Origin: an uncultured Eubacteriales bacterium
GTDB taxonomy: Bacteria > Bacillota > Clostridia > Oscillospirales > Oscillospiraceae
Reading direction: 5' to 3'
Assembly (NCBI GenBank): GCA_900543085.1
Contig: UQQF01000036.1
Coordinates: 1 to 20,286, forward strand
Length of the DNA stretch: 20,286 bases
Below the pieces are notes generated by a model that worked only from the letters and a program-made list of their open reading frames with translations, did no database searches and was not told the DNA's origin. The stretch's first letter is position 1. Each line of letters starts with the position of its first letter. Below are positions 1 to 18,140 of the stretch, in pieces. The position numbers and the translations under genes are program-made.

Positions 1-136
1 CATCGCAACCCAAAAAGCGTTTTTCTCTTTGGAGTCTGAGGGGTTTCTTTTTGTCGCCACAAAAAGAAATCCCTCAGGAGTTCCGCAACCCGCTCCCGGG
101 TTGCACCCCCCGGGGGCGGGGTCGCCCCCACAAAAC
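1..136. other. Hairpin-rich intergenic region downstream of purA
   Basis: No convincing gene lies here. Three strong inverted repeats follow one another after the purA stop on the minus strand. The first has arms 112-118 and 123-129 (GGGGGCG/CGCCCCC). The second has arms 85-92 and 97-104 (GCAACCCG/CGGGTTGC). The third is a 42-nt hairpin at 36-77. Short T-runs on the minus strand lie beyond the third hairpin, but no hairpin is directly followed by a classic U-tract. The stretch may end the operon transcript, yet much of it (10-79) is a dispersed repeat and not a dedicated terminator. Confidence 0.6.
10..79. repeat. 70-nt dispersed hairpin repeat, copy 1
   Basis: This unit recurs at 14255-14323 with two substitutions and one single-A length difference. 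It contains a small stem (CCAAA at 10-14 with TTTGG at 28-32) and then a long stem with arms 36-54 and 59-77 around a CGCC loop. The long stem carries one G-T wobble. The flank before the long stem has the same orientation in both copies, while the long stem in copy 2 equals the reverse complement of that in copy 1. No coding function is evident. It looks like a small non-autonomous or REP-like intergenic repeat. Confidence 0.75.
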
Positions 137-1405
137 TCACCTGATAATGATTTGTTCCCTATCCGCCCCCACGGAGATGTAGGTTATCCGGCAGCCGACT
201 TCCTGCTCGCAGTAGAGGACGTAGTCCCGGGCGGCCTGGGGGAGGTCTTCAAACCTGCGGCAGCCGCTGATGTCGCCGTCGAAGCCGGGGAGGTACTCGT
301 ACACGGGCTTGGCGCGCTCCAGCGCGCCGCCGCTGGGGAAGTTGTCGGTGATTACGCCGTCGACGTCGTAGTGCGTGCAGACGGGTATCTCGCCGTAGCC
401 TGCTAGCACGTCCAGCTTGGTGAGGGCTATCTCGGTCGCGCCCTGCACTCTCACGCCGTAGCGGCTGGCCACGACGTCGAAGCCGCCGACGCGCCTCGGG
501 CGTCCGGTGGCCGCGCCGTACTCGCCGCCCAGCTCGCGCAGCTTGTCCGCGCGCTCGCCGAAGAACTCGCAGGTGAACGGTCCCTCGCCGACGCAGCTGG
601 AGTACGCCTTCATGATGCCTATGACCTTGTCCAGCTTGTGCGCCGGCACGCCCGCGCCGATGGGCGCATAGGCCGCCAGCGTGGTGGACGAGCTGGTGTA
701 GGGGTAGATGCCGAAGTCTATGTCGCGCAGCGCGCCGAGCTGGGCTTCAAACATGACGTTCGCGCCGCGCTCCTCTATAGCGTCGTGCAGCCACACGGTG
801 GTGTCGGTGATGCGCCCGAGCAGCGGCTCGCCGTTGGTCATCAGCCAGTCGTACATCTCGTCGGCGTCCGCCTCGGCGCCGTAGCCGCGCAGGGTGATGT
901 TCTTCCACTCGACTATGTCGCGCAGCCGCTCTTTCAGCCCCTGGGTGTGCAGCAAATCGCCCATGCGCAGCGCCTTCTTCATGTACTTGTCCGCGTAGAT
1001 GGGCGCTATCCCGCGGCGGGTGGAGCCGAATTTCTTGTCGGCCAGGCGGTCTTCCTCCAGGCCGTCCATCAGCCGGTGATAGGGCATACAGATGGTGGCG
1101 CGGTCGGAGATGAGCAGCGCATCCCCGGCGGGAGCGGCGCCCTGTCCGGCCAGGTGGTTCAGCTCGTTTTTCAAATGCTCTATGTCTATGACCATGCCCG
1201 GACCCATGATGTTGGTCACGCCCTCGCGCAATATGCCGCTGGGCAGGAGGTTCAATATGAACTTCCCGCGCTCGTTCACGACGGTGTGTCCGGCGTTGTT
1301 GCCGCCCTGGTAGCGGCAGACGACGTTGTAGTCGGCGCTGAGCAGGTCGACCATGCGGCCCTTGCCCTCATCGCCCCAGTTGATGCCGGCGATTGCTGTC
1401 AGCAT
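137..1405 (-). CDS. purA: Adenylosuccinate synthetase
   Basis: PurA joins IMP and aspartate using GTP to give adenylosuccinate, the first committed step from IMP to AMP, in the cytosol. The 422-aa product is of normal family length. It has the GTP-binding signature GDEGKG at residues 11-16 (catalytic Asp12), the GGNNAGHT motif at 34-41 with the general-acid His40, and the C-terminal TGRPRR and TKLDVL motifs of the family. The residue before WGDEGKG is Asn where many family members have Gln. The ATG at 1405 has GAGG just upstream and overlaps the purB stop by 7 nt, so the two genes are translationally coupled. It is the last gene of the operon; PurB acts on its product. Confidence 0.97.
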   Translation of the reverse strand: MLTAIAGINWGDEGKGRMVDLLSADYNVVCRYQGGNNAGHTVVNERGKFILNLLPSGILREGVTNIMGPGMVIDIEHLKNELNHLAGQGAAPAGDALLISDRATICMPYHRLMDGLEEDRLADKKFGSTRRGIAPIYADKYMKKALRMGDLLHTQGLKERLRDIVEWKNITLRGYGAEADADEMYDWLMTNGEPLLGRITDTTVWLHDAIEERGANVMFEAQLGALRDIDFGIYPYTSSSTTLAAYAPIGAGVPAHKLDKVIGIMKAYSSCVGEGPFTCEFFGERADKLRELGGEYGAATGRPRRVGGFDVVASRYGVRVQGATEIALTKLDVLAGYGEIPVCTHYDVDGVITDNFPSGGALERAKPVYEYLPGFDGDISGCRRFEDLPQAARDYVLYCEQEVGCRITYISVGADREQIIIR

Positions 1406-2838
1406 TTGACCTCACCCTTTCCGTCGGCGCCCAGCTCGGCGGCGTTCGCCTCGAGCATGGGCTTGATGCTGTTGTTTACAAAATCGCGCGCCTGCTTGGG
1501 CGCCATGCCTATGAACTTGCGTATGTCCAGCAGCTCCGAGAGCGTCTCGCGTGTGAGCCTGAAGCGCTCATCGGCGAGCAGCTTCTCCTCCAGGTCGTTG
1601 GCGCAGCCGGTCTCCTTCATGCGCCTGGCGGTGTCCACGCTGTACTCGCGTATGACCTCGTGCAGCTCCTGGCGGTCGCCGCCCAGCTCCACGGCGCGCA
1701 TGAGTATGTTCTCCGTGGCGAGGAAGGGCAGCTCCTCGCGCAGGTGCCGCTCCATCATGCCGGGGTAGACCGTGCAGCCGCTCATGACGTTTATGACCAG
1801 GTTGAGTATGGCGTCCGTGGCGAGGAAGGCCTCGGGGATGGAGATGCGCCTGTTCGCGCTGTCATCCAGCGTGCGCTCCAGCCACTGCACGCTGGAGGTG
1901 ATGGCGGGGTTGAGCGTGTCGCACAGCACGTAGCGCGCCAGGGAGCATATACGCTCGCAGCGCATGGGGTTGCGCTTGTAGGCCATGGCGCTCGAGCCGA
2001 CCTGCGAGGCCGTGAACGGCTCGTCAAACTCCTTCTCGTGCGCCATCAGGCGCAGGTCTGTGGCCATCTTGCTCGCGCTCTGCGCGATGCCGGACAGCAC
2101 GCTGAGGAAGTAGTAGTCCAGCTTGCGCGTGTAGGTCTGGCCGCAGATGGGCAGCGCGCGCTCAAAGCCCATGTCGCGCGCTATGCGCGCCTCCAGCTCC
2201 TCGGCCTTGGCCGCGTCGCCGCCGAACAGGGCGAGAAAGCTCGCGCCGGTGCCGGTCGCGCCCTTGCAGCCGTAGAAGGGTATGCGCTCCAGCTCGAAGT
2301 CCAGCCGCTCCAGGTCGAACATGAGGTCCTGCGCCCACATGCACGCCCTCTTGCCTACGGTGGTGGGCTGGGCGGCCTGATAGTGCGTGTAGGCCAGCAC
2401 GGGCGTGTCCGCGTTCTTCTCCGCGAAGTCCGCGATGGCCGCGATGGCGTTCACCAGCAGCATGCGTATCTGACGCAGCGCGTCGCGGTAGGCGATGAGG
2501 TCGCCGTTGTCGTCCACGTAGCAGCTCGTCGCGCCCAGGTGGATTATCCCGCGGGCTTTGGGGCAGTGGTCGCCCCAGGCGCGGATGTGCGCCATGACGT
2601 CGTGGCGCAGCTCGCGCTCGTACCTGTCGGCGGCCTCGTAGTCGATCATGTCCAGGTTTGCGCGCAGCTCATCCACCTGCTCGGCGGTGACGTTCAGCCC
2701 CAGCGCGTGCTCGTTTTCCGCGAGGGCGAGCCAGAGGCGGTGCCAGGTGGTGAACTTGTAGTCCGGGGAGAAGATGTACTGCATCCGCTCGGAGGCGTAG
2801 CGCGAGCAGAGCGGGCTTTCGTAAGTAGGCTTGTTCAC
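1399..2838 (-). CDS. purB: Adenylosuccinate lyase
   Basis: PurB cleaves adenylosuccinate to AMP and fumarate, and SAICAR to AICAR, so it serves both the IMP and AMP branches. The protein belongs to the fumarase/aspartase superfamily. The flexible-loop signature GSSAMAYKRNP lies near residues 281-291, and the catalytic His motif YTHYQ is near residue 152. At about 479 aa it is of the longer type, compared with about 430 aa in Bacillus. Two GTG starts are possible. GTG at 2847 overlaps the glmS stop as GTGA, but a GGAG site lies 8 nt before GTG at 2838, so I prefer 2838. The gene is tightly packed between glmS and purA. Confidence 0.95.
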   Translation of the reverse strand: MNKPTYESPLCSRYASERMQYIFSPDYKFTTWHRLWLALAENEHALGLNVTAEQVDELRANLDMIDYEAADRYERELRHDVMAHIRAWGDHCPKARGIIHLGATSCYVDDNGDLIAYRDALRQIRMLLVNAIAAIADFAEKNADTPVLAYTHYQAAQPTTVGKRACMWAQDLMFDLERLDFELERIPFYGCKGATGTGASFLALFGGDAAKAEELEARIARDMGFERALPICGQTYTRKLDYYFLSVLSGIAQSASKMATDLRLMAHEKEFDEPFTASQVGSSAMAYKRNPMRCERICSLARYVLCDTLNPAITSSVQWLERTLDDSANRRISIPEAFLATDAILNLVINVMSGCTVYPGMMERHLREELPFLATENILMRAVELGGDRQELHEVIREYSVDTARRMKETGCANDLEEKLLADERFRLTRETLSELLDIRKFIGMAPKQARDFVNNSIKPMLEANAAELGADGKGEVKC

Positions 2839-2843
2839 TGTTA

Positions 2844-4670
2844 TCACTCCACTGTAACGGATTTGGCGAGGTTTCGGGGCTTATCTATGTCGCAGCCGTT
2901 TTCGCGCGCGATGTGGTACGCAAAGAGCTGCAGCGGTACTATCTCGGGCAGGGCGGCGAAAAGCGGCTCGCACTTCGGGGAGTACAGCACGTCGTCCGCC
3001 TCGGCGAAGATGCGCCGGTTGCCCTCCGGCGCCACGCCGAGCACCTTGGCGCCGCGCGCTTTGACCTCCTGGATGTTGCTGACCATCTTGTCGAACAGCG
3101 CGTCCTGGCAGCAGAGCGCCACGACCAGGCGCTTTTCGTCTATCAGCGCTATGGTGCCGTGCTTCAGCTCGCCGGCGGCGTAGGCCTCGGAGTGTATGTA
3201 GCTTATCTCCTTGAGCTTGAGCGAGCCCTCCATCGCGGCGGCGTAGTCTATGTTGCGCCCGATGAAAAAGAGGCTTTGCAGCTGGTGCCAGCGCTCGGAC
3301 AGGTACTTGACGTGCAGGTTCAGGTCTATCGCGCGCTGCACCATCCTGGGCAGGGAGCGTATACTCTCCACCAGCTGGGAATAGCGCTCCGCGTCTATCT
3401 TCCCCAAAAGCTCCGCCGCCCAGACGGCAAAGAGGTACAGCGCCGCGAGCTGGGTGGTGTAGCCCTTGGTGGTGGCCACGGCTATCTCGGGGCCTGCGTG
3501 GGTGTATATGACGCTGTCGGCCAGGCGCGCTATGGTGCTGCCCACGACGTTGACTATGGCGAGGCTCCTCGCGCCGCGCGCCATGCACTCGCGCATGGCG
3601 GCGATGGTGTCCGCCGTCTCGCCGGACTGCGAGATGACTATCAGCAGCGTGTGCGAGTCTATTATCGGGTCGCTGTAGCGCAGCTCGCTGGCGAGGGCGC
3701 ACTCCACGCTCACGCGGCAGAGCGACTCTATCACGTACTTGCCCACCACTCCGGCGTGGTATGCGCTGCCGCAGGCGGTTATCACTATCCTGTTGTAGCC
3801 CTCCAGCTCCTCGCGAGTGAGCGCGAAGTCCTCGAAGACTATCCGGCCGCCGCGTATGCGCGGCTCCACGGTGTTCTTGACGGCGCGGGGCTGCTCCATG
3901 ATCTCCTTCATCATGAAGTGCTCATAGCCGCCCTTCTCGGCGGCCTCGATGTCCCAGACCACGTGGCTGACGGTCTTGGTTATCTCCCGGCCGGTGCGGT
4001 CGTAGACGGTTATCTGCTCGGGCGTCAGCTCGGCAAACTCGCCGTCTTCCATGTATATGACGTTCTTCGTCCGGCTGACCAGGGCGGTGACGTCGCTGGC
4101 GAAGTAGTTCTCCCCGACGCCGAGGCCGAGGATGAGGGGACCTGCCTCCTTGACGCAGAACAGCCTGCCCGGCTCGGCGGCGCAGAGCACGCCCAGCACG
4201 TAGCTGCCCTCCAGGCGCGAGGCCGTGCGCATCACCGTGCGCTTGAGGTCGCCGTCGTAGTACTTCTCCAGCAGGTGCGCCACTACCTCGGTGTCCGTCT
4301 CGCTGGCGAATACGTAGCCCTCCGCCTCCAGCTCGCTCCTGAGCGCGGCGAAGTTCTCGATTATGCCGTTGTGGATGACGGCGAACAGCCCGTGCTCGCT
4401 CAGATGCGGGTGGGCGTTGGTGTCCGTCGGCGCGCCGTGGGTCGCCCATCTGGTGTGGGCTATGCCGCACACGCCGCGCAGGGCGTTCCCGTTCTCGGTC
4501 AGCTCCGCGAGGTGGGCTACCGAGCCGCTGGCCTTGACCATCTCGATGCGCTCTCCGTCGTGCACGGCCACGCCCGCGCTGTCATACCCGCGGTACTCCA
4601 GCCGGCGAAGGCCCTCGATAAGCACCGGCGCGGCCTGGGTCGAGCCGGTAAATCCTACAATTCCGCACAT
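2844..4670 (-). CDS. glmS: Glutamine-fructose-6-phosphate aminotransferase (isomerizing)
   Basis: GlmS makes glucosamine-6-phosphate from fructose-6-phosphate and glutamine, the entry step to UDP-GlcNAc and peptidoglycan. The 608-aa product begins MCGIVGF, so Cys2 becomes the N-terminal nucleophile after Met removal. The N-terminal GATase-2 domain shows the RWATHG and HNGIIENF motifs. Two SIS sugar-isomerase domains follow, and the protein ends in the family-typical PRNLAKSVTVE. A frame-consistent ATG at 4685 exists, but it overlaps the AGGAG ribosome site. Only ATG 4670 places Cys at position 2, so 4670 is chosen. It lies 40 nt after pyrG, too close for a glmS ribozyme. Confidence 0.97.
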   Translation of the reverse strand: MCGIVGFTGSTQAAPVLIEGLRRLEYRGYDSAGVAVHDGERIEMVKASGSVAHLAELTENGNALRGVCGIAHTRWATHGAPTDTNAHPHLSEHGLFAVIHNGIIENFAALRSELEAEGYVFASETDTEVVAHLLEKYYDGDLKRTVMRTASRLEGSYVLGVLCAAEPGRLFCVKEAGPLILGLGVGENYFASDVTALVSRTKNVIYMEDGEFAELTPEQITVYDRTGREITKTVSHVVWDIEAAEKGGYEHFMMKEIMEQPRAVKNTVEPRIRGGRIVFEDFALTREELEGYNRIVITACGSAYHAGVVGKYVIESLCRVSVECALASELRYSDPIIDSHTLLIVISQSGETADTIAAMRECMARGARSLAIVNVVGSTIARLADSVIYTHAGPEIAVATTKGYTTQLAALYLFAVWAAELLGKIDAERYSQLVESIRSLPRMVQRAIDLNLHVKYLSERWHQLQSLFFIGRNIDYAAAMEGSLKLKEISYIHSEAYAAGELKHGTIALIDEKRLVVALCCQDALFDKMVSNIQEVKARGAKVLGVAPEGNRRIFAEADDVLYSPKCEPLFAALPEIVPLQLFAYHIARENGCDIDKPRNLAKSVTVE

Positions 4671-4710
4671 ATGCGCTCCTTTCAATCGTGCCGCGTGGGG
4701 ACTTGCGCGC

Positions 4711-6946
<2,236 letters not shown>

Positions 6947-6963
6947 TGCGCGCCCCCTTTCAG

Positions 6964-7200
6964 TCAGTCTCTGTCTGTTACGTCGAAGATGCCGGTCACC
7001 TTGCGGCAGCTCTCGCAGTAGTACGCATCCGGCACACGGGTCTCACCCAGCAGATGGTTCGTTTTGCCAAGGCTCACTTCCGTGTCATATGCCGGGCGCC
7101 ACCCTTTTTCGAATTTCTCCTCAGGCACCCAGACCAGGCCGCGCCCCATGGCTATCAGGCCGCCCTTTTGCATCTCCAGGCCGCATACCGGGCATTTCAT
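6964..7200 (-). CDS. Small zinc-ribbon protein (DUF6487/PF20097-like)
   Basis: This 78-aa protein has an N-terminal CPVC (residues 3-6) and a C-terminal CESC pair, spaced like a split zinc ribbon around a central segment with several aromatic residues. The layout resembles small Firmicute proteins of the PF20097 (DUF6487) type; I make that link from memory of the pattern. There is no signal peptide or membrane segment, so it should be cytosolic. Its ATG at 7200 lies 7 nt after the guaA stop, and a GGAG within the guaA end serves as ribosome site, so it is co-translated with guaA. Its function is unknown; zinc binding and protein or RNA contact are inference. Confidence 0.8.
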   Translation of the reverse strand: MKCPVCGLEMQKGGLIAMGRGLVWVPEEKFEKGWRPAYDTEVSLGKTNHLLGETRVPDAYYCESCRKVTGIFDVTDRD

Positions 7201-7207
7201 AGTCTGC

Positions 7208-8749
7208 TCACTCCCACTCTATGGTCGCGGGCGGCTTGCTGGTGATGTCGTAGACCACGCGGTTTATGCCGCCGACCTCGTTGACTATGCGCGTGGACAC
7301 GCGGTCAAGCAGCTCCCACGGCAGGTGGAACCAGTCCGCGGTCATGAAGTCGCTGGTCTCCACGGCGCGCAGTGCCAGTGTGTAGTCATAGGTGCGCCCG
7401 TCGCCCATCACGCCCACGCTGCGAGTGTCGGTCAGCACGGCGAAGTACTGGTCGGGCAGCTTGGGCAGGCCGGAGGCGGCCAGCTCCTCGCGGAAGATGG
7501 CGTCCGCCTCGCGCAGCGAGCTCAGCTTGTCCTCGGTCACGTCGCCAATCACGCGGATGGCCAGGCCGGGACCCGGGAAGGGCTGGCGCATGACCAGGCT
7601 CTCGGGCAGACCCAGCTCGCGGCCGAGCTGGCGCACCTCGTCCTTGAACAGCATGCGCAGCGGCTCTATGATCTCGCGGAAGTCCACATAGTCGGGCAGG
7701 CCGCCTACGTTGTGGTGGCTCTTGATGACCGCGGCGTCGCCCGTGCCGGACTCTATGACGTCGGGGTAGATGGTGCCCTGCGCGAGGAAGTCGACGGCGC
7801 CTATCTTCTTAGCCTCGGCCTCGAACACGCGGATGAACTCCTCGCCTATGATGCGGCGCTTGCGCTCCGGCTCGCTGACGCCGGCGAGCTTGATGAGGAA
7901 GCGGTCGCGCGCGTCGACGCGCACAAAGTTCAGCTCGCGGTCGGAGAACACGCGCTCGACCTCGTCGGCCTCGCCCTTGCGCAGCAGGCCGTGGTCGACA
8001 AACACGGCGGTGAGCTTGTCGCCGACGGCCTCGCTCAGCAGCGCGGCGGCCACGGAGGAGTCCACGCCGCCGGAGAGCGCGAGCAGCACCTTGCCGCCGC
8101 CGACCTTCTCGCGTATGCCGGCTATGGCCTCGTCCTTGTAGCTGCCCATGGACCAGCTGCCCGCGGCCTTGCAGGCGCCGTAGAGGAAGTTGCGTATCAT
8201 GTCCGTGCCGTGCTCGGTGTGGTTCACCTCGGGGTGGAACTGCACGCCGTAGAAGCCGCGGCTCTCGTCGGCGATGGCCGCGTTGGGGCACACGGAGGTG
8301 TGGGCGGTGTTCCTGAAGCCGTCCGGCACGCGCTCCATGTAGTCGCCGTGGCTCATCCAGGTCACGCCCTCGGACTCCAGCCCGGCGAACAGGGCGCAGC
8401 CGGTGTCAAAATGCGTGTCCGTGCGGCCGTACTCGCGCGCGGTGTCCTCCTGCGCGGGCACGACGCTGCCGCCGAGGTACTGCGCCATGAGCTGGCAGCC
8501 GTAGCAGATGCCCAGCACCGGCACGCCCAGGGCGAAGATGGCCGGGTCGGCCTTCGGCGCGTCGGCGGCGTAGACGCTGCCGGGGCCGCCGGTGAGGATG
8601 AGTCCTATCGGCGCCATCGCGCGCAGCTCCTCTATCGAAGTGGTGTAGGGCTTGACCTCGCAGTACACGCCGCACTCGCGCACGCGGCGGGCTATGAGCT
8701 GGTTGTACTGGCCTCCGAAGTCAAGGACGATAACCGTTTCTTGTCGCAT
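7208..8749 (-). CDS. guaA: GMP synthase (glutamine-hydrolysing)
   Basis: GuaA converts XMP to GMP with ATP and glutamine. The 513-aa product has the class-I amidotransferase domain first, with nucleophile Cys82 in GICYG and His172/Glu174 in FHPE. The ATP-pyrophosphatase domain follows, with its P-loop SGGVDSS at 226-232. The C-terminal dimerisation domain ends in KPPATIEWE, the family-typical tail. ATG 8749 gives the conserved start of the amidotransferase domain, and an AGAGG site lies 11 nt upstream. The start lies inside the 3' end of the ANTAR gene (29-nt overlap), so translation is probably coupled. It is the first of three glutamine amidotransferases in the operon. Confidence 0.97.
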
Positions 8750-8966
8750 TCTGATTTGTTCCTCTCTTTTCCTCGTATTTCTCGTGGTAGTCGATGATTT
8801 CCCTGGCGACCTGCCGCTTCTTCACGCACCTGTCCATCGCGCTGTGCACGATGAAGCGGTGAGCCTCGGCCTCGGTCATCCCGCGCATCTTTATAAGGAT
8901 GAGCTTGGCGCGGTTGACAAGCCGGATTTCCTCAACAAGCTTTCTGATGTCTTCATAGGTGTACAC
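8721..8966 (-). CDS. Stand-alone ANTAR-domain RNA-binding protein, putative antiterminator
   Basis: This 81-aa protein is almost entirely an ANTAR domain (residues about 12-62). That is the three-helix RNA-binding fold of AmiR, NasR and EutV, which binds tandem hairpins in nascent leaders and prevents termination. Visible hallmarks are the RAK motif at 19-21, the hydrophobic [14 protein letters not shown] stretch, AMD near 43-45 and VAREII near 53-58. A longer reading from 9068 would run through the leader hairpin and U-tract. GTG 8966 has an ideal GGAGG 7-8 nt upstream and starts at the domain, so I chose it. There is no receiver, GAF or nitrate-sensing domain, so its signal input is unknown. 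It heads the purine/CTP/glucosamine operon and overlaps guaA. Confidence 0.87.
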
Positions 8967-9095
8967 GCCCAGCCCTCCTTTGTGCGTCTTAAAAAGCAAA
9001 AAACGACGCTCCCGATGCCAAAAGAGGGCACCTCGGCCCTTTGGGTATCGTTGAACGCCGTTGCTCAAAACGAGCTCTTAGCTCTTTCATTAACG
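8967..9095 (-). promoter_or_regulatory. Transcribed leader with candidate attenuator
   Basis: Between the predicted transcription start (about 9094) and the ANTAR GTG lie about 125 nt of leader. A hairpin spans 9013-9050 on the minus strand, with outer arms CGAU/AUCG and an inner GGGC/GCCC around the hexaloop CGAGGU. An alternative longer base stem (ACGA..CCC with GGG..UCGU, 9003-9051) runs directly into U6 (9003-8998) and U5 (8995-8991), which is terminator-like. Upstream, a 5-bp hairpin at 9072-9084 (GAGCU/AGCUC) competes with GCUC/GAGC pairing just downstream. Such alternatives would suit attenuation. Pairings were made by eye. Confidence 0.55.
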
Positions 9096-9100
9096 GAGAT

Positions 9101-9129
9101 ATTATATTCTTGCCGCCGTGCCTTGTCAA
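9101..9129 (-). promoter_or_regulatory. Perfect consensus vegetative promoter of the ANTAR-guaA operon
   Basis: On the minus strand TTGACA (9124-9129) and TATAAT (9101-9106) are separated by exactly 17 nt, a full match to the housekeeping sigma consensus. The start of transcription is expected near 9094. No other clear promoter was seen inside the eight-gene operon, so this one probably serves all of it. Such a strong promoter followed by a hairpin-rich leader suggests that control occurs after initiation. Confidence 0.9.
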
Positions 9130-9150
9130 GTGAAAAGTTATGAACGGTCA

Positions 9151-9190
9151 AAAATTTTTAGCTGTCCGGCTCATATTGAGCCGGACAGCT
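9151..9190 (-). terminator. Terminator of the acetyltransferase gene, overlapping its 3' end
   Basis: A perfect 14-bp stem has arms 9160-9173 and 9177-9190 with a 3-nt loop. The stop codon (9171-9173) and the last codons of the acetyltransferase lie within the stem. On the minus strand the stem is followed by AAAA and then a T5 run, so the U-tract is not immediately adjacent. It insulates the downstream ANTAR operon promoter, which begins about 20 nt further on. Confidence 0.75.
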
Positions 9191-9698
9191 CCGCGCGGCT
9201 TATTCCGTAGACTATGTGGGGCATGTACACGCCGTGGTAATGCTTCATCATCACGGCGCGAGGCTCCATGCCCAGGCGCAGCGCGACGCGGCGCGAGGCC
9301 TGATTCACGTCGCGGATGATGGAGTACACCTCGTTGAAGCCCAGCGTCTCAAAGGCGTAGTCCCGGCAGGCCAGAGCCGCCTCCGTGGCGTAGCCGTGGT
9401 GCCAGCGGTCGCGCCGGAAGACATAGCCTATCTCCGGCACGTGCGCGCCCAGGCAGTCCTGGACGGTGACGCCGCACTGGCCTATCACCTCGCCCGTCTC
9501 CTTCAGCTCCACGGCGCAGAGGGAGAAGCCCCAGATGCGCCTGCGCAATATCTGCTTTTCAAGCCACTCGGCTACCTCGTCGTCCGAAAACGTGTGGGCA
9601 TACGCCCACATGGTGTCCGCGTCCATCATGGAGCGCAGCGCGTCGTAGTCACCCGGCTCCAGGTCGCGCAAAACAAGCCTCTCCGTCTCAAGTCTCAT
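9171..9698 (-). CDS. GNAT-family N-acetyltransferase (RimJ/RimL-like)
   Basis: The 175-aa protein opens with the RimJ-type pattern LETERLVLRDL. It carries the acetyl-CoA pyrophosphate-binding motif RRDRWHHGYATEA at 95-107 and the conserved NQASRRVALRLGM at 132-144. It should use acetyl-CoA to acetylate an amino group in the cytosol. The family covers ribosomal-protein acetylation, drug resistance and small-molecule targets, and the substrate cannot be assigned. ATG 9698 has GGAGG 6 nt upstream and overlaps the dehydratase gene by 11 nt, so the pair is co-translated. Confidence 0.88.
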   Translation of the reverse strand: MRLETERLVLRDLEPGDYDALRSMMDADTMWAYAHTFSDDEVAEWLEKQILRRRIWGFSLCAVELKETGEVIGQCGVTVQDCLGAHVPEIGYVFRRDRWHHGYATEAALACRDYAFETLGFNEVYSIIRDVNQASRRVALRLGMEPRAVMMKHYHGVYMPHIVYGISRAELSGSI

Positions 9699-10410
9699 GT
9701 TTGCCCTCCGATATGTCCAACACTATCTTCTGCGCCATCAGCAGCCCGGCCGTGGCCGGCACCCACACCGCGGAGCCGGGCACGCTGCGCCTGCCCGGGG
9801 GCGGAGCCTCGACCTGGGCGCACTCGTGCGCCGGCTCGTCGGAGAACACCACGTCCAGGTGCTCTATCCCCAGCCTGCGCAGCTCGCGGCGGAGCACCCG
9901 CGCGAACGGGCAGCCGCTGGTTCCGGACAGGTCGGTGATCCGCAGCCGCTGCGCGTCCAGCTTGTTCCCGGTGCCCAGCGCCGAGACTATCGGCACGCCG
10001 CGCGCCTTCGCCGTCGAGATCAGGTCCACCTTGCAGCTCACGAGGTCTATGCAGTCGGCAATGTAGTCGCAGTCCGCCGGGAAAACCCCGCCGCGCGTCT
10101 CGGCGCTGTACAGCGCGTGCACCGGCGCTATCTCAGCGTCCGGCGCTATGTCCCGGCAGCGCGCGGCGAGCACCTCCGCCTTGCCCAGACCCACGGTGGA
10201 GGCGAGCGCGCCGAGCTGGCGGTTCACGTTGCTCTCCGCCACGGCGTCCGAATCTATCAGCACCAGCGCGCCGACGCCCGAGCGCGCGAGCGCCTCGGCG
10301 CACCACGAGCCGACGCCGCCCAGACCCACGACCGCCACTCTCGCGCGGCTCAGCCGCTCCATCGCGTCCGAGCCCAACAGCATTTCAATTCGCTTAGTGC
10401 GCTCCTTCAC
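9688..10410 (-). CDS. tcdA: tRNA threonylcarbamoyladenosine dehydratase (ThiF/E1-like)
   Basis: TcdA adenylates and cyclises t6A at position 37 of ANN-decoding tRNAs to ct6A. The 240-aa protein has the nucleotide-binding GLGGVGS loop at 29-35, LIDSD with Asp53, NRQ at 63-65, Asp122 and Lys127 in the central ThiF core, and the TcdA-like SGTSGCP near 162-168. These features separate it from ThiF and MoeB, which carry Zn-binding CxxC pairs. GTG 10410 is chosen because a GGGAGGT site lies 6 nt upstream; the earlier TTG at 10425 overlaps that site. It follows the foldase terminator closely, so it may depend on read-through or on a promoter I could not identify. Confidence 0.9.
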   Translation of the reverse strand: MKERTKRIEMLLGSDAMERLSRARVAVVGLGGVGSWCAEALARSGVGALVLIDSDAVAESNVNRQLGALASTVGLGKAEVLAARCRDIAPDAEIAPVHALYSAETRGGVFPADCDYIADCIDLVSCKVDLISTAKARGVPIVSALGTGNKLDAQRLRITDLSGTSGCPFARVLRRELRRLGIEHLDVVFSDEPAHECAQVEAPPPGRRSVPGSAVWVPATAGLLMAQKIVLDISEGKHET

Positions 10411-10437
10411 GGCCACACCTCCCAAACGGTTTGAGTG

Positions 10438-10467
10438 AAAAAGGCAGAGCCGGTAGGCTCTGCCTTT
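10438..10467 (-). terminator. Intrinsic terminator of the foldase gene
   Basis: A 12-bp perfect stem has arms 10440-10451 and 10456-10467 (AAAGGCAGAGCC and its complement) with a 4-nt loop. On the minus strand it runs into five T residues (10442-10438). It starts 16 nt after the foldase stop and ends just before the ribosome site of tcdA, so tcdA lies directly behind a terminator. Confidence 0.9.
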
Positions 10468-10482
10468 GTGTATTTGTCAGCC

Positions 10483-12171
10483 TTACACCTTGGCGAACCA
10501 GTTGATAAAGCCGTTGATGCTGACCGGGAACTGGGCGAACAGCTCGTCCTCCCAGGCGGTGTAATCCTGCTGGCGCAGACCCTCGGGGGCGCCGGCGGAG
10601 CCAAGGCCGTACTGAGCCAGGCAGTCGTGGTAGTTGTAGTCGTCGGTGCCGACGAAGTAGACCAGGTGGTAGCCGGTGTAGTTGCTGGCCTCGACGTAGA
10701 TTATCTCGGTGTCGCCCGGCTGGCGCTCAGAGTCGAATATCCAGTCGTTGATGCCGTCGACCATCTGGTTCACGGCGACGTGCTCATAGAGTCCGCCGCT
10801 GCTGCCGTAGGTGCTGGAGCCGTTGGAGCGGCTGTCGTCGCTGTAGGTGTTGGCCAGCTCGGCAAAGCTGTCCTCGGTGGCCTCGTTGTCCTGCCAGTCG
10901 GAGTAGATCTCGTTGATCTCGTCCTCGGCGCTCTGACGCTCCTCGTCGCTTATCTCTCCGTCCTCATCGGCGTCGTCGACCTGGATGAGTATGTGGCGGA
11001 AGCTCACGCCGTTGTAGGAGCTGTTGTCGTTGCGGGAGTGGAAGACCACGACGTAGTAGCCGGTGTCGGCGCTCTCAATGACGGCCACGTCCCCGGCCTG
11101 GCGGGAGCCGTCAAGCACCCACTCGGAGAAGTCGTCGGAGAAGTTGCTGCTGACGCTGTAGCCGAAGGCGTTCTCGTACTCGGTGATCTCGGCGTCCTCG
11201 ATCTCGCCGGAGACGGTCTCGGCGAAGTCCGCGCCGCCCTCGACGGCCTCGGCGATGCCGTCGGCGATCTCCTTGGCGTCGGCCATGGTGGCCTCGGTCA
11301 CCTGGTCGTTGGTCTCCTCGGTCTCCTCGCCGGTCTCCTCGTCGGTCACGGTCTCGGTGACCTCCTCGGTCTCGGCGCGGACGAGGTAGTAGTCAAAGCT
11401 CAGCGCGTCGAAGGCGTCGGCGTTCTCGTCGTAGTAGCTGTTGAGCTCGTCGGCGGTGTACTCAAAGCCCTCGAACACGTCGGTGGAGTAGCTCTCGGCG
11501 ATGTAGGCGCGCTCGAGCAGCTCGCGCACGAGCGCGGAGTCCACGCCCTTGCCGTAGGCCAGGGCGATGTAGCCGTCGGCGCCGCGCAGGTTGTTCTTCT
11601 CGGCCAGAGTGGCATAGTTGGAGATGATGTCGTCGATGGAGGCGCTGTCCTCCTCGCTGAGCGTGTAGCCGGCCTTAGTGGCGGCGTCCCAGATGGCGGT
11701 GACCTGCACCATATTCTGCAGCGCGGTCTCGCGGAAGTAGTCCGCCCAGGTGATCTCCTCGGGGGCGTCGTCGCCGGTGAGGGAGTCGGGCAGGGTCAGA
11801 CCGAGCATCTCGACCATGGACGTGTTCATCGTCTGATCCTTCAGGTCGGAGTTCGTGTCAAGGCCGAGGTAGCTGGCGACACTGCCGTACTGGGAGACAA
11901 AGTTGTTGTACGCAGTGTTGTAGTAGTACTGGTACTCGGCGTTAGTGAACTCGTAGTCGCCTATGGTCATGGCGGTGGTGCCGGTGTAGAACAGGTTGGT
12001 GTTCAGCACTATGACGAGTATGACGAACACAGCGACGATGACGCCGACTATCGTCCACGTCCGCCGCTCCTTTTTGCTTTTGAGCTCGGCCTCGCGCTCG
12101 GCGAGCGTCTTCGGGCTGGTGCCTGCGGTTCGCTCGGCCTGGCGCCGCTTCTTGTCCTGAGATGCGCTCAT
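10483..12171 (-). CDS. Membrane-anchored parvulin-type foldase (PpiC/SurA-like)
   Basis: The 562-aa protein has a charged cytosolic tail (1-37), one membrane segment at about 38-58 (a signal anchor; no lipobox Cys as in PrsA), and a large external part. Residues 67-250 resemble a SurA-type chaperone domain rich in Tyr and Asn. Two parvulin-like segments follow, about 258-378 and 388-510. The second has the typical FRHILIQ strand and a SFAELANTYSDD helix. Peptidyl-prolyl isomerases of this type help secreted proteins fold outside the membrane. An acidic Thr/Glu-rich stretch lies at 268-297 and an EF-hand-like loop at 400-411. ATG 12171 has AAGGAT upstream; the reading from 12303 would cross the promoter. 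Gene symbol prsA is possible but not assured. Confidence 0.87.
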   Translation of the reverse strand: MSASQDKKRRQAERTAGTSPKTLAEREAELKSKKERRTWTIVGVIVAVFVILVIVLNTNLFYTGTTAMTIGDYEFTNAEYQYYYNTAYNNFVSQYGSVASYLGLDTNSDLKDQTMNTSMVEMLGLTLPDSLTGDDAPEEITWADYFRETALQNMVQVTAIWDAATKAGYTLSEEDSASIDDIISNYATLAEKNNLRGADGYIALAYGKGVDSALVRELLERAYIAESYSTDVFEGFEYTADELNSYYDENADAFDALSFDYYLVRAETEEVTETVTDEETGEETEETNDQVTEATMADAKEIADGIAEAVEGGADFAETVSGEIEDAEITEYENAFGYSVSSNFSDDFSEWVLDGSRQAGDVAVIESADTGYYVVVFHSRNDNSSYNGVSFRHILIQVDDADEDGEISDEERQSAEDEINEIYSDWQDNEATEDSFAELANTYSDDSRSNGSSTYGSSGGLYEHVAVNQMVDGINDWIFDSERQPGDTEIIYVEASNYTGYHLVYFVGTDDYNYHDCLAQYGLGSAGAPEGLRQQDYTAWEDELFAQFPVSINGFINWFAKV

Positions 12172-13918: not shown

Positions 13919-14389
13919 CGGGGGGCTCCCCGCGGGACTCCTGGGAGGCTTTCTTTGGTCTTGGCCAAAGAAAGCCCCCCAGACCCCGGCGTCGTCACAA
14001 TCTCCGTATCCTTCGCTTCCGGGCAAGCCCGAAAGCTCAGTCACTCCGATGCTCCTCCTTACCGCCGCACAAGCACGCTTGCGCGGCGGATAGGGTGCCA
14101 CTTGCTTACCTCTCTAACCTCCGACCGGTAAGCGCTCCGGCGCAACGCGCCGTCGCGCGAAAAAGACAGCACCCCAGTCTCGTATAGACTAAGGGATGCA
14201 AACGTATCTATGTCGAACCGTGAGGATAAAACTAATCCCCGGCATATTAACGCACCAAAAGCGTTTTTCTCTTTGGAGTCTGAGGGATTTCTTTTTGTCG
14301 CCACAAAAAGAAACCCCTCAGGAAATAATGAATTAAGCGATAATAATATGCAAATAGTATAAAACCCCCAAAAGGTAGTGATTGTATTT
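13919..14389. other. 471-nt gene-free region with several hairpins and a repeat copy
   Basis: I see no gene on either strand. Inverted repeats lie at 13943-13980 (core GGCTTTCTTTGG and its complement, no U-tract on either side), 14062-14089 (CCGCCGC/GCGGCGG with inner CAAG/CTTG), 14139-14151 (GGCGC/GCGCC) and 14280-14321 (inside the 70-nt repeat). Between 14152 and 14254 no structure stood out. Just before the nuclease gene the DNA turns AT-rich, with a possible -10 TATAAA at 14358-14363 but no convincing -35. Confidence 0.65.
14255..14323. repeat. 70-nt dispersed hairpin repeat, copy 2
   Basis: This is the partner of the copy at 10-79, some 14.2 kb away: two substitutions and one A fewer. 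The long stem has arms 14280-14298 and 14303-14321 with loop CGCC. The two substitutions sit at paired positions, so this stem has an A-C mismatch on the plus strand (G-U on the minus) where copy 1 has G-T on the plus. Confidence 0.75.
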
Positions 14390-15223
14390 ATGCCAATGGA
14401 AAACATGCGTCTCGCAGTCCTGATCGACGGGGACAACGCCCCGCGGGACTGTTTGAAGGGAATAATGGAGGAGATCGCCATCTACGGCACGCCGATGATA
14501 AAGCGCATATACGGCGACTGGGCGAGCCACGGGCTGACCTCCTGGAAGAACACGCTGCTTGAAAACGCCGTCACGCCCAAGCAGCAGTTCGCGTACACGA
14601 CCGGCAAGAACGCCACGGACTCGGCCATGATAATCGACGCGATGGACATACTCTACACCGGCAAGACCGACGGCTATGTGCTCGTCAGCTCCGACAGCGA
14701 CTTCACGCCGCTGGCGATACGCCTGCGCGAGAGCGGGATGTACGTCATCGGCATCGGCGAGGAGAAGACGCCCAAGGCCTTTGTCCAGGCCTGCGACAAG
14801 TTCATCCGCGTCGAGGTCATACGCGACAAGTACAAGAAGCCCGCCAAGACCGCCGCGAAGAAGACGGCCTCGACGGCCAAGAAGGCCGCGTCCAAGACGC
14901 CCGAGAAGGCCGAAAAGGCCCCCGCCAAGACCGCAGCCAAGAAGGCGGCCGCCCCGGCCGCGGACGCCAAGCCGCCCGTGCCCGAGGATATCATCAACCT
15001 CATCGCCGACAGCGTGGCCGACCTGGCCGACGACGACGGCTGGATAGACATGTCCAACCTCGGCAACCTCATAATCAAAAAGCAGCCGGACTTCGACCCA
15101 CGCACCTACGGCTACGGCAAGCTCTCCAACATGCTCCGCAACCTGCCCCGCTTTGAAGTCCAGGTGCGCGAGACCGCCGACCCCAACGTGCGCCCCATGT
15201 ACGTGCGCGACGTCGAGGCCTGA
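14390..15223 (+). CDS. NYN-domain nuclease with Lys/Ala linker and C-terminal OST-HTH/LOTUS domain
   Basis: The 277-aa protein has three parts. The NYN (PIN-like, LabA/DUF88) domain covers residues 6-145 and shows acidic metal-binding residues Asp13 and Asp15 in LIDGDN, Asp77 in ATDSAM, and Asp102/Asp104 in SSDSDF. A low-complexity linker rich in Lys, Ala and Pro (149-195) resembles histone H1 tails. An OST-HTH/LOTUS RNA-binding domain (about 196-275) ends the protein. By family knowledge NYN proteins cleave RNA, and LOTUS modules bind RNA; the target is unknown. Starts at GTG 14378 and ATG 14390 are both possible; AAAAGG lies 2 and 14 nt before them, neither ideal. I prefer the ATG. Confidence 0.88.
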   Translation: MPMENMRLAVLIDGDNAPRDCLKGIMEEIAIYGTPMIKRIYGDWASHGLTSWKNTLLENAVTPKQQFAYTTGKNATDSAMIIDAMDILYTGKTDGYVLVSSDSDFTPLAIRLRESGMYVIGIGEEKTPKAFVQACDKFIRVEVIRDKYKKPAKTAAKKTASTAKKAASKTPEKAEKAPAKTAAKKAAAPAADAKPPVPEDIINLIADSVADLADDDGWIDMSNLGNLIIKKQPDFDPRTYGYGKLSNMLRNLPRFEVQVRETADPNVRPMYVRDVEA

Positions 15224-15292: not shown

Positions 15293-15865
15293 TCACCCGG
15301 CCAGGCTCATGAACCCCGCGCTGGAGAGCTTGATTATTATGTCCGCCACCTCGCCGCTGGGCTTGACCGTGCCCTCGGCGAGCCACTTCCTGATGACGCC
15401 CACGCTGCCTATGGCGATGAACGTGTAGATGTACTCCGCGTCCTCCATGCTCGCGGAGCTGTTGGCGCGCCAGTGCTCGATGAACTGCTTCTCCACCACC
15501 TGTACCACCTGGTTCTGGAACCCCGTGTCGCCCTGGTCGGACAGCAGCGCGCGGCAGGCCTCCGCGTTCTCGCGGACGTACTCCACTATCTCCGTCATGC
15601 TGTCCTTGAGGTCGCCGCCAAGCGCGGCGATGGCCGGCTGCACCCGGCGGGATATGTCCTCTATCAGCTCCCGCTCTATGCTGTGCAGCAGATCCGTGGG
15701 GTCGCTGTAGTGCGAGTAAAATGTCGCGCGGTTGATGCCCGCCTTCTCGCAGATTTCGGTCACCGTTATCTTCGCCACCGGCTTGGTCTGCATCAGCTCC
15801 AGCAGGCTGGATCTGACCATCATTTTAGTGTAGCGCACGCGCGCGTCCTGCTTCTTCCCGGGCAT
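15293..15865 (-). CDS. TetR/AcrR-family transcriptional repressor
   Basis: The 190-aa protein has an N-terminal TetR DNA-binding domain: a first helix around 12-28, then the helix-turn-helix at about 33-52 (ITVTEICEKAGINRATFY), which fits the family strongly. The C-terminal ligand-binding and dimerisation part is helical and variable. ATG 15865 has GAGGAGGT 5 nt upstream; the reading from 15880 passes through that site and is rejected. It is divergent to the MMPL transporter gene, the usual arrangement for a local repressor of an efflux system. The ligand is unknown but is plausibly a substrate of the transporter. Confidence 0.92.
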   Translation of the reverse strand: MPGKKQDARVRYTKMMVRSSLLELMQTKPVAKITVTEICEKAGINRATFYSHYSDPTDLLHSIERELIEDISRRVQPAIAALGGDLKDSMTEIVEYVRENAEACRALLSDQGDTGFQNQVVQVVEKQFIEHWRANSSASMEDAEYIYTFIAIGSVGVIRKWLAEGTVKPSGEVADIIIKLSSAGFMSLAG

Positions 15866-15903
15866 GGCGCACCTCCTCAAAAGTCGTGAATTTTTTGTGA
15901 TAT

Positions 15904-16067: not shown

Positions 16068-18140
16068 ATGGATGGATTGACAAGGGGCATCACGCGGCAC
16101 AAAAAGCTCGTGATAGCCATATTCCTGGTCGCGACGGTCATATCGGCCGTGCTGATCCTCGGGGTGAGCGTCAACTACGACCTCACGGACTATCTGCCCG
16201 AGGACTCGGAGAGCACGATAGCGCTCGACCTGATGTACGAGGAGTTCGGCTCCGGCGTGCCGAACACGCGCGTCATGGTGCGGAACCTGACGCTGACGGG
16301 CGCCGTGGAGACGAAGGCGAAGATCGCGCAGGCTCCGGGCGTCACGGGAGTGATGTGGCTGGACGACACGCAGGACATGTCCACACCGATAGAGCTGATG
16401 GACAGCGCCACCGTGGAGCAGTACTGGCACGACGGCACGGCGCTCTATCAGGTGACGATAGAGGAAGGCCGCGAGAGCGAGGCCGTAGCCGCGCTGTATG
16501 AGATGCTGGGCTCGGACGTGGCCATATCCGGCAACTCCGCGAACACGGCCAGCATGCAGAACCTGGTCGTCAGCGAGGTCGTGGGCGCGGCCAGCATCCT
16601 GATCCCCATCATTATAATCATATTGCTGCTGACCACCACGAGCTGGATCTCGCCGGCGCTCTTTCTGCTGACGATAGGCGTCGCGGTGCTTATAAACATG
16701 GGCACCAACGTCGTCTTCGGCGAGATAAGCTTTGTCACGCAGAGCGTCAGCCCCATATTGCAGCTCGCAGTCTCGCTGGACTACGCCATTTTCCTGCTCA
16801 ACAGCTTCGGCCGCCACCGTCAGGAGGTCGACATCAGCGAGACGGCCATGCGCCTTGCGATAAAGGAGAGCTTCTCGTCCATCGCGGCCAGCGCCGCGAC
16901 GACCCTGTTCGGCTTCATGGCGCTGATGTTCATGCGCTTCGGCATAGGCAGCGACCTCGGACTGAACCTAATGAAGGGCATAGTGCTCAGCTATGTGTCG
17001 GTCATGGTGTTCCTGCCCGCGCTCGCGCTTGCAAGCGTGAAGCTGCTGGACAAGACCTCGCACAGACCCATCATACATACGGGCAAGCGCCTCGGGCGCG
17101 CGCTGGTCAAGGTGCGCATCCCCGCGCTGATACTCGTGCTCATAGCCGTTATCCCCTGCTACCTCGCGCAGACCCGCGCCGACTTCCTCTACGGCAACGG
17201 CACGCCCGACACCCGCACGGACTACGGCCGCGACACCGTGGCGATAAACGAGGAGTTCGGCGAGTCGAACGCCCTGGTGCTGCTGGTGCCCCGCGGCGAC
17301 CCCGGCGCGGAGGCGAAGATGGCCGAGGAGCTGGCCGGCATCGACCACGTCACCAGCGTGCTCAGCTACGCCGGCACCGTCGGCGCCGTGCCGGAGGGCT
17401 TCCTGGACGAGAGCATAGTCTCCCAGTTCTACTCCGACGGCTATGCGCGCATCATCATGTACACCGACACCTCCGAGGAGGGCGACGAGGCCTTCGCCGT
17501 TGTCGAGCAGGTGCGCGCCACGGCGGACAAGTACTACTCCGAGAGCTGGCTGTGCGGCCAGAGCGCCAACCTCTACGACATGCGCGACGTGGTCACGGCC
17601 GACTCCACCCTGGTCAACTGGATAGCTATAGGCTTCATCTTCCTCACGCTGCTGGTGACCTTCAAGAGCGCCACGCTGCCGTTCATACTGCTGTTCGTAA
17701 TAGAGGCGGCCATCTGGATAAACCTCTCCGTACCGTACTTTGCAGATCAGCCTCTTGTGTACATAGGCTACCTGGTCATCAACACGGTGCAGCTGGGCGC
17801 GACTATAGACTACGCCATACTCATGACCAACGGCTACACCGCCAACCGGCGTACAATGGGCAAGCGCGAGGCGGTCGTGGCCACGCTGAACACCAACTTT
17901 GAGAGCGTGCTGACCAGCGGCGTGATACTCACCGCCGCCGGACTGTGCCTGGGCTTTGTCAGCTCGCTGCAGGTCGTCGCCGAGCTGGGCATATTGCTCG
18001 CGCGCGGCACGGTGCTCTCAATGGCCATGGTCGTGCTGGCTCTGCCCGCGCTCTTGATTCTCTTTGACCCGCTGACCGCCAGGCTCACCTGGAAGGCCGG
18101 ATTTATCGACACTGCCAAAAAGGAGGCTGAGACAAAATGA
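16068..18140 (+). CDS. MMPL/RND-superfamily transporter
   Basis: The 690-aa protein has about 12 membrane helices in two repeats. Helix 1 (14-34) is followed by an external domain (35-170), then helices between about 171 and 324. Helix 7 (351-368) is followed by a second external domain (369-513), then helices between 514 and 667. Each repeat has an Asp-Tyr pair in its fourth helix (238-239 in SLDYAIF, 581-582 in TIDYAIL), matching the proton-relay pairs of MmpL3-type proteins. Substrates of this family are often lipids or hydrophobic compounds. ATG 16068 has GGAGGG 6 nt upstream. Its stop overlaps the next gene as ATGA, so the two products are probably made together. Repression by the adjacent TetR is likely. 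Confidence 0.93.
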   Translation: MDGLTRGITRHKKLVIAIFLVATVISAVLILGVSVNYDLTDYLPEDSESTIALDLMYEEFGSGVPNTRVMVRNLTLTGAVETKAKIAQAPGVTGVMWLDDTQDMSTPIELMDSATVEQYWHDGTALYQVTIEEGRESEAVAALYEMLGSDVAISGNSANTASMQNLVVSEVVGAASILIPIIIIILLLTTTSWISPALFLLTIGVAVLINMGTNVVFGEISFVTQSVSPILQLAVSLDYAIFLLNSFGRHRQEVDISETAMRLAIKESFSSIAASAATTLFGFMALMFMRFGIGSDLGLNLMKGIVLSYVSVMVFLPALALASVKLLDKTSHRPIIHTGKRLGRALVKVRIPALILVLIAVIPCYLAQTRADFLYGNGTPDTRTDYGRDTVAINEEFGESNALVLLVPRGDPGAEAKMAEELAGIDHVTSVLSYAGTVGAVPEGFLDESIVSQFYSDGYARIIMYTDTSEEGDEAFAVVEQVRATADKYYSESWLCGQSANLYDMRDVVTADSTLVNWIAIGFIFLTLLVTFKSATLPFILLFVIEAAIWINLSVPYFADQPLVYIGYLVINTVQLGATIDYAILMTNGYTANRRTMGKREAVVATLNTNFESVLTSGVILTAAGLCLGFVSSLQVVAELGILLARGTVLSMAMVVLALPALLILFDPLTARLTWKAGFIDTAKKEAETK

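Follow-up and report, generated by a model that had tools for sequence, protein, structure and literature searches.

Organisation of the locus

The 20,286-nt stretch of contig UQQF01000036.1 analysed here, referred to as the window, carries on its minus strand an operon that is headed by the gene for an 81-residue ANTAR RNA-binding protein and is preceded by a leader RNA with two mutually exclusive folds (Table 1; positions are counted on the window). Domain matches bore out the gene list and coordinates of the original prediction, which had joined the three amidotransferases GuaA, PyrG and GlmS with PurB and PurA. Glutamine-amidotransferase domains are present in GuaA, PyrG and GlmS; the start codons of pyrG and glmS are our choice within the listed open reading frames (ORFs). 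The prediction had also stated that the first gene encodes only an ANTAR domain and that no sensor is visible. Indeed, ANTAR (PF03861) is the single Pfam domain above its cut-off in this protein (56 bits versus a cut-off of 27.3), and no receiver-like domain accompanies it. The perfect promoter that had been claimed was found as a sigma-A type sequence, and a 12/12 promoter with a spacing of 17–18 nt occurs in all ten loci with such a bare ANTAR gene (the window and its relatives L001–L009). In positions 1–11000, four promoter-like sites were detected, compared with a mean of 1.3 in shuffled sequences. Finally, the hairpin leader turned out to be an attenuator with an ANTAR-type hexaloop, which the prediction had not named. 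Upstream of the promoter, a perfect 14-bp hairpin followed by AAAAATTTTT (9160–9190) lies at the end of a GNAT gene and is a probable terminator that would insulate the promoter at 9129.

Table 1. Features of the ANTAR-guaA operon and its leader.
Feature	Position	Strand	Basis and remarks
Sigma-A type promoter TTGACA-17-TATAAT	9101..9129	-	12/12 consensus matches
5' leader RNA, ~128 nt	8967..9094	-	start placed ~7 nt past the -10 box
P1 antiterminator hairpin UUGAGC-AACGGC-GUUCAA	9051..9068	-	read from sequence; hexaloop 9062-9057 with A1 and G4
Intrinsic terminator	8998..9059	-	fold, kept pairing; stem 9059-9005, base helix 9059-9053 with 9011-9005, U-run 9003-8998
Apical P2-like hairpin AGGGC-CGAGGU-GCCCU	9025..9040	-	fold; loop without A1, not a canonical second hexaloop
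Ribosome-binding site AAAGGAGGG	8973..8981	-	read from sequence
Bare ANTAR protein, 81 residues, GTG start	8721..8966	-	Pfam PF03861
guaA, GMP synthase (glutamine-hydrolysing)	7208..8749	-	Pfam; 29-nt overlap with the ANTAR gene
DUF6487 zinc-ribbon protein	6964..7200	-	Pfam; not found in this slot in relatives
Histidine phosphatase superfamily protein	6383..6946	-	Pfam; same place in L001, L002, L006, L008 and L009
pyrG, CTP synthase	4711..6342	-	domain match
glmS, glutamine--fructose-6-phosphate transaminase	2844..4670	-	domain match
purB, adenylosuccinate lyase	1399..2847	-	domain match
purA, adenylosuccinate synthase	137..1405	-	domain match

Two exclusive folds in the leader RNA

The base helix of the terminator is formed by GGCGUUC and GAGCGUC and is followed by six U residues. 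Its 5' arm begins at G4 of the P1 loop and continues through the 3' arm of P1; since P1 and the terminator share these bases, the two folds are mutually exclusive. To assess both pairings, ten leaders, five from the genus of the bare ANTAR protein and five from a second genus, were compared with slid pairings and with 500 shuffles. The terminator showed 85.2% of its cells paired versus at most 55.6% for slid pairings, and the 11 cells altered on both sides were matched by 1 of the 500 shuffles, as was the covariation score. For P1, 96.6% of the cells were paired versus at most 49.2%. MAFFT placed one gap in the P1 of L006, so the paired-cell figure undercounts this row; the hairpin there differs in stem and loop (GUCGGC AGCGAC GUUGAC) but is still paired and retains A1 and G4.

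These two loop bases occur in 16/16 aligned leaders (9 of guaA and 7 of glnA, with L002 and L007 excluded), which also share the closing C-G pair and the last loop C; positions 2, 3 and 5 of the loop vary. The leader alignments A3 and A5 exclude L002 and L007 (no canonical P1), L003–L005 (no such leader) and L012 (a copy of the L011 type); A5 further excludes L017 and the short glnA leaders L296 and L302, in which A1 and G4 are present and the last loop base is different.

Several results weigh against a switch of this kind. The terminator is the stabler fold at −24.8 kcal/mol, compared with −12.5 kcal/mol for P1 plus the apical hairpin, which leaves the P1 fold about 12 kcal/mol weaker. The folding energy of the whole 128-nt leader is ordinary (z of −1.2; 27 of 200 shuffles were equally good), and a consensus terminator scan did not list the leader terminator at 9059–9005. 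The evidence for the leader terminator is comparative. Furthermore, the three terminator pairs altered on both sides were matched by 86 of the 500 shuffles and the number of further pair types by 386, while for P1 the paired cells were matched by 21/500 and the changes on both sides by 154/500. Thus, the pairing of the terminator and of P1 is clearly kept, whereas their covariation is only moderate.

Measured against the dual-hexaloop RNAs recognised by ANTAR proteins, the leader has a first hexaloop with A1 and G4 and an overlap with the terminator, which runs through P1 and not through P2. A second canonical hexaloop is missing from the window: the apical loop reads CGAGGU, and its sequence is not kept, being different in L001, L008 and L009. 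Therefore, we do not class the leader as a dual-hexaloop RNA, although it would work like one. Rfam returned no family for the whole window at the gathering score, and the leader searched at an expect value (E) <= 10 gave six matches, all far below the gathering score.

The bare ANTAR protein

AlphaFold predicted helices at residues 4–28, 32–46 and 50–65 (mean predicted local distance difference test score 84.7), corresponding to the three-helix core of ANTAR domains. The best eight PDB fold matches to this model were Rv1626, NasR, AmiR and EutV with a probability of 1.00, none of them with E <= 0.001. The ratio of nonsynonymous to synonymous changes (pN/pS) of the ANTAR gene was 0.07–0.26 against nine relatives, indicating purifying selection, and a decaying pseudogene is ruled out by these values. 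The protein start MY[TS]Y is kept in most relatives.

The RNA-contact residues of EutV are named in PMC8934654. In an alignment, with the positions mapped by hand, E160 and M172 of EutV are kept as E32 and M44, and K143, K147 and R177 correspond to the basic residues R15, R19 and K49, while Y164 and N173 are changed to H36 and D45. Alignment A1 covered 33 of 52 homologues plus the window protein. In PMC3369936, receiver-free pieces of EutV were obtained as RNA-binding dimers, suggesting that the bare ANTAR protein may bind RNA without an input of its own. Two points argue against such binding: EutV R142 and R175 are replaced by I14 and C47, and the short EutV piece E140 was called monomeric with weaker RNA binding (PMC8934654), so dimerisation of the 81-residue protein is not assured.

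Conservation of the ANTAR-guaA pair

The original prediction had proposed a search of related genomes for an ANTAR-guaA pair, and the neighbourhood is in fact conserved. Genome contigs scanned for the ANTAR family, without selection for guaA, yielded 27 loci, in 15 of which guaA follows directly (L001–L014 and L017). The bare form is encoded in L001–L009, and a form of about 195 residues with a receiver-like domain in L010–L014 and L017. Exactly one ANTAR gene per genome was present in 13/13 genomes. In the genus of the window (that of G001), ANTAR occurs in 10 of 13 genomes, as the bare form in nine and with a receiver in G016. In the second genus (that of G010), 28 of 35 genomes carry 30 ANTAR genes. 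Here guaA follows in 27/30, that is, at every locus not next to glnA, and in 26 of these a type III glutamine synthetase gene lies divergently; the remaining three lie beside glnA. Two genomes of this guaA-linked genus hold two ANTAR genes each, namely G168 (L181 and L204, both beside glnA) and G166 (L192 and L205, of which one neighbours glnA and the other precedes guaA).

The gene order of the window continues in four of the nine bare loci: L001, L006, L008 and L009 carry the phosphatase gene, pyrG, glmS and purB, or at least a part of purB, behind guaA. In L002 the phosphatase gene and pyrG are visible, and the other bare loci show none of these behind guaA in the available DNA. The identity to the window in L008 and L009 is 62% for GuaA, 77–84% for PyrG, GlmS, PurB and PurA, and 72–74% for ANTAR. 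Separately, guaA may have been replaced in one of these lineages (L008 and L009 versus the window) behind a retained ANTAR gene and leader. A second match to the C-terminal synthetase part of GuaA only (residues 204–513, 58% identity) lies at G001:C49:687-1601 (L076), and comparable matches occur in G014 and G015.

The slot between guaA and the histidine phosphatase gene looks like a small cargo slot, with four kinds of gene in five relatives, none like that of the window. It holds GNAT-like, CAT-like (twice), GIY-YIG-like and cyclase-like proteins, named by reading the sequences and not by a family search. The slot lies at 6964-7200 in the window and at L001:11764-12276, L002:11769-12395, L006:9809-10453, L008:6422-7117 and L009:3258-3902. 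The zinc-ribbon protein had no match at E <= 1 across the 27 related loci.

The following leader counts weigh against the proposed switch. In the second genus, 21 of the 27 ANTAR-guaA loci have a short leader without an A1/G4 hexaloop, and the attenuator is found in six. Among the ten bare-ANTAR loci, the P1 hexaloop at guaA is intact in five (the window, L001, L006, L008 and L009), whereas the guaA leaders of L002 and L007 are degenerate by our reading and L003–L005 have short ones with no such structure.

glnA as a likely second target

Searching 14 genomes with a pattern of the hexaloop plus its closing bases yielded 100 matches, compared with 40 for the reversed pattern. Of 91 sites scored, 20 were viewed in context; glnA sites were attenuator-like, and most others lay within long open frames. 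Pattern sites L216 and L292 also carry a long stem and a T-run, and the target list may be incomplete. The recurring attenuator, for instance GGGC AAAGGC GUCC ... GGACGCCUUUGCCC followed by U residues, precedes a gene starting M-x-x-Y-T-K-x-D-I, which a glnA search identified as glnA. Eight bare-ANTAR genomes (G001–G007 and G009) have a visible glnA leader, and each of them carries an attenuator with the A1/G4 loop. Seven of the glnA attenuators were first met through a pattern that requires A1 and G4, while the later glnA search took every genome whatever its leader. In G008 the glnA gene is cut by the contig end, and the glnA leaders of G009 and G014 retain A1 and G4 with a different last loop base. 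G015, in which ANTAR is absent, has no glnA attenuator.

An RNA model built from the guaA and glnA leaders (R1) gave 16 matches with E < 1e-5 over 17 genomes, all at guaA or glnA, and missed the glnA leader of G009. Because 14 of the 16 are training sequences, R1 shows the absence of further strong targets and is not an independent find. Two observations speak against glnA as a target of the window protein: G014 has a glnA attenuator and no ANTAR was found in this possibly partial assembly, and the attenuators come from the genomes of relatives and not from the window organism itself. Still, L003, L004 and L005, whose guaA leaders have no hexaloop, combine purifying selection on ANTAR with an attenuator at glnA. 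From these sequence patterns, the bare ANTAR protein is likely to control glnA in trans as well in its genus. The autoregulatory antitermination switch put forward in the original prediction therefore stands in part: exclusive folds kept in relatives argue for a switch, but autoregulation is too narrow, since ANTAR selection and the glnA attenuator persist where the guaA leader is lost, and the protein is probably not only autoregulatory.

Pseudo-receiver ANTAR proteins and a candidate regulon in the family

Across the family, ANTAR was detected in 90 of 150 genomes with 103 matches, of which 98 were fetched, plus one of G016; 3 of 127 loci (L091, L098 and L148) were dropped because they had no chosen ANTAR ORF. 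Genes in G+C-rich contigs were picked by cross-locus homology, and Pfam was run on cluster representatives. Among the 88 pseudo-receiver loci tabulated, glnA lies directly before ANTAR in 72, and pyrG (19), gltB (10) or carA (5) directly after it; seven loci show no glutamine gene within the stretch.

In the 101 aligned c1 and c4 proteins (some from the 27-locus scan), the first acidic position of the receiver-like domain is never D or E, and the second is E or D in 29/37 c4 and in no c1 protein. The phospho-site D is present in 14/64 c1 proteins, including the six linked to guaA, and in no c4 protein, being lost in 87/101. Judging from these residues, phosphorylation of the pseudo-receivers is unlikely for most. 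The seven c23 proteins, on the other hand, retain all three acidic positions (D/D/D in six, E/D/D in one), and histidine kinase genes lie behind two of them (L110 and L083).

A second RNA model (R2), trained on ANTAR-guaA leaders only, was applied to the 150 genomes. It gave 15 matches with E <= 5e-4 beyond the three training genomes, and 11 of them precede guaA (G110 and G100), pyrG (G145, G040, G118, G058 and G074), ANTAR-pyrG-purB-purA in an operon much like that of the window (G095), a gltB-like GATase_2 gene (G114 and G141) or glnA (G115). Two matches in G147 precede transporter-like genes and have tandem A1/G4 hexaloops, and the remaining two of the 15 (G097 and G066) look like chance, as do those in G157 and G063 and weaker ones. 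When the hexaloops upstream of genes were compared, A1/G4 loops were more frequent at glutamine genes than elsewhere, with 57/370 versus 47/617 for stems >= 5 (p 1e-4) and 28/170 versus 25/286 for stems >= 6 (p 0.01), both p values being optimistic as the loci are related. Combined, these data point to a candidate family-wide glutamine regulon under ANTAR control. Against this, G095, G145 and G058 among the 11 have no canonical P1, G095 and G145 carrying A1/G4 in the apical hairpin instead, and G145, G114 and G118 have such leaders despite no ANTAR match, although these assemblies may be partial; together with G066, they are the four of the 14 genomes with R2 matches in which ANTAR was not found.

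Matches to the guaA-leader model at L348, L354, L351, L355, L359, L360, L361, L364, L350, L352, L356, L363, L357 and L367 precede guaA, pyrG, gltB-like genes or glnA, and a type III glutamine synthetase gene often lies in divergent orientation to them; L363, L364 and L367 are weaker (E of 0.006–0.01). Tandem A1/G4 hexaloops stand at L155:4194-4345 and L158:4183-4362 (plus strand), beside an ANTAR gene and before a transporter-like gene of 495–523 residues, whose L155 product had no Pfam match above the cut-off.

Proposed mechanism and input

We consider, with a probability of about three in four, that the module is an ANTAR antitermination switch at the guaA operon, probably shared in trans with glnA; its input would be the glutamine or nitrogen state. 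RNA polymerase starting at the promoter would make a leader with two alternative folds. Formation of the terminator would leave the operon off, while an ANTAR protein holding P1 would remove the 5' arm of the terminator and allow read-through into ANTAR-guaA-pyrG-glmS-purB-purA; RNA binding and the turning on of genes by it are here deduced from sequence comparison. One RNA-binding regulator would then be common to glutamine synthesis and to the major glutamine-using steps that supply nucleotides and amino sugars. The input would be read through the amount or sequestration of ANTAR rather than by a built-in ligand domain, with glutamine synthetase as its likeliest partner. The link to glutamine in the original prediction is upheld by the glnA attenuators in the genus and by the position of glnA directly upstream of most pseudo-receiver ANTAR genes. 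Its two suggested partners, an amidotransferase and the zinc-ribbon protein, find no such backing. The histidine phosphatase, kept in the operon of five relatives, is a possible partner.

Among the alternatives, a loop governed by concentration alone would have no input: RNA binding would be constitutive, the amount of ANTAR would set read-through, and positive feedback would keep the operon and glnA on during growth. The lack of a sensor domain, the RNA-binding dimers formed by receiver-free EutV pieces (PMC3369936) and an operon without a kinase are in line with this, but terminators would hardly be maintained at two loci for a switch without input, positive feedback on its own is prone to locking on, and the conserved phosphatase is possibly regulatory; on balance, we hold this explanation to be doubtful. 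It is also conceivable, though we do not favour it, that ANTAR acts mainly in trans on glnA, that the guaA leader is a residual attenuator under loss, and that the gene position serves only to co-produce ANTAR with glutamine-using enzymes. The attenuator is indeed present at every visible glnA leader of the bare-ANTAR genomes versus half of their guaA loci, and selection on ANTAR persists where the guaA leader is lost. However, guaA leaders that are present show good conservation as far as L008 and L009, and that of L006 retains A1/G4 despite its changed stem.

Sensing by direct contact with GuaA or the zinc-ribbon protein would agree with the overlapping ANTAR and guaA genes and their constant adjacency. 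Yet this is improbable: GuaA has diverged in L008 and L009 beside far more similar operon enzymes while ANTAR and the leader were kept, so GuaA is not favoured as a conserved sensor partner, and the zinc-ribbon protein has no match at E <= 1 in the 27 related loci, its slot holding other proteins in the five relatives inspected. A small-molecule riboswitch for purine or glutamine, with ANTAR as a bystander, would suit a structured leader in front of genes that make purines, but we regard it as highly improbable, given that the window has no Rfam family at the gathering score and the leader matches are at chance level, that the conserved loop positions are those known for ANTAR, and that the motif precedes genes of different pathways, several of them beside ANTAR.

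Origin of the bare protein

The bare ANTAR protein would most simply be a relative of the glnA-linked, NitR-like ANTAR proteins with a dead receiver, in which the receiver was lost. A more specific and rather unlikely proposal is an internal deletion in a leader-glnA-ANTAR operon that fused the first dozen glnA codons to ANTAR and left the attenuator in place, with GlnA then as sensor. Such a fusion would account for the missing receiver, the new N-terminus and the attenuator. In G016, of the same genus, the order is glnA-receiver-ANTAR-pyrG. The first 13 residues of the protein, MYTYEDIRKLVEE, resemble the N-terminus of GlnA, M..YTKEDIIRLVEE; at least 12 of 85 GlnA N-termini outscore every one of 1021 other N-termini, the medians being 19.6 and 4.9, respectively. 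However, 100 shuffles of the segment gave a mean of 9.6 and a largest median of 20.4, which exceeds the observed 19.6, so the likeness is suggestive only. In addition, a motif was used to choose the GlnA starts, and convergence on a helix-capping motif is possible. If the fusion is real, the GlnA-like N-terminus would dock glutamine synthetase, which would hold or release the antiterminator and so act as the sensor that the protein lacks, in a switch governing GMP, CTP, AMP and glucosamine-6-phosphate synthesis.

Other genes in the window

Outside the operon, the window encodes an NYN domain fused to an OST-HTH/LOTUS domain (14378-15223, plus strand) and a TetR-type regulator (15293-15880, minus strand) divergent from an MMPL-family transporter (16068-18140, plus strand) and a 651-residue protein without a Pfam match at E <= 1e-5 (18137-20092, plus strand).

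Comparison with known ANTAR systems

A search of the available literature found no paper joining ANTAR, antitermination and guaA, and neither CTP synthase nor GMP synthase occurred as a term in the ANTAR papers among the matches listed. Purine, GMP, CTP and pyrG gave no match in the main text of PMC3369931, and its supplementary tables could hold guaA or pyrG. On present sequence evidence, what is new here is the sensorless ANTAR protein, a single-hexaloop attenuator whose first hairpin overlaps the terminator, guaA and pyrG as putative targets, and the link to glnA within the genus.

The nearest described regulator is NitR of Clostridium saccharobutylicum, reportedly described by Stutz et al. 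in 2007 and presumably encoded beside glnA. NitR is an ANTAR antitermination protein that induces glutamine synthetase/glutamate synthase (GS/GOGAT) genes on nitrogen limitation (PMC6316151), which suggests the glutamine or nitrogen state as input in our case as well. In contrast to NitR, the window protein has no receiver-like domain and heads a nucleotide operon, with glnA as a likely, distant second target.

EutV/EutW of Enterococcus faecalis shares the ANTAR fold, the A1/G4 hexaloop and an antiterminator exclusive with an intrinsic terminator (PMC3369931, PMC8934654), and the loop A1 and G4 are needed for induction through EutV (Ramesh et al., PMC3369931). The eut 13-mer AGCAANGRRGCUY fits AGCAACGGCGUUC of the window leader at 11 of 13 positions. 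In the EutV leader, P2 overlaps the terminator and P1 is free, whereas in the window leader P1 overlaps and P2 lacks an A1/G4 loop. Furthermore, EutV works with a phosphorylated receiver and with a kinase, and two-component ANTAR regulators in general (EutV, PdtaR) possess a receiver with an acidic pocket, a phospho-Asp and a kinase, while the window protein has no receiver. AmiR/AmiC and NasR likewise have an ANTAR output, with the AmiR pseudo-receiver controlled by a partner protein; the window protein has no NIT domain, and no amide-binding partner is among the Pfam matches of the operon.

Closest in setting are the pseudo-receiver ANTAR proteins of the family beside glnA, pyrG and guaA, which have the same neighbours and in part the same attenuator type; the ANTAR domain of the guaA-linked ones is 55–57% identical to that of the window. 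They differ in having kept a receiver-like domain of some 130 residues, with a largely lost phosphorylation pocket. If the proposed switch is correct, ANTAR control would extend from nitrogen uptake and glutamine synthesis to the nucleotide amidotransferases guaA and pyrG family-wide, and in uncultured Clostridia one 81-residue RNA-binding protein would control glutamine synthetase together with the glutamine-using GMP, CTP and amino-sugar steps. This very small member would then make nitrogen sensing by ANTAR proteins without a working receiver testable. The minimal ANTAR site has been redefined as one hexaloop (PMC8934654), and an ANTAR switch reducible to a bare output domain and one hexaloop would be a test of that proposal.

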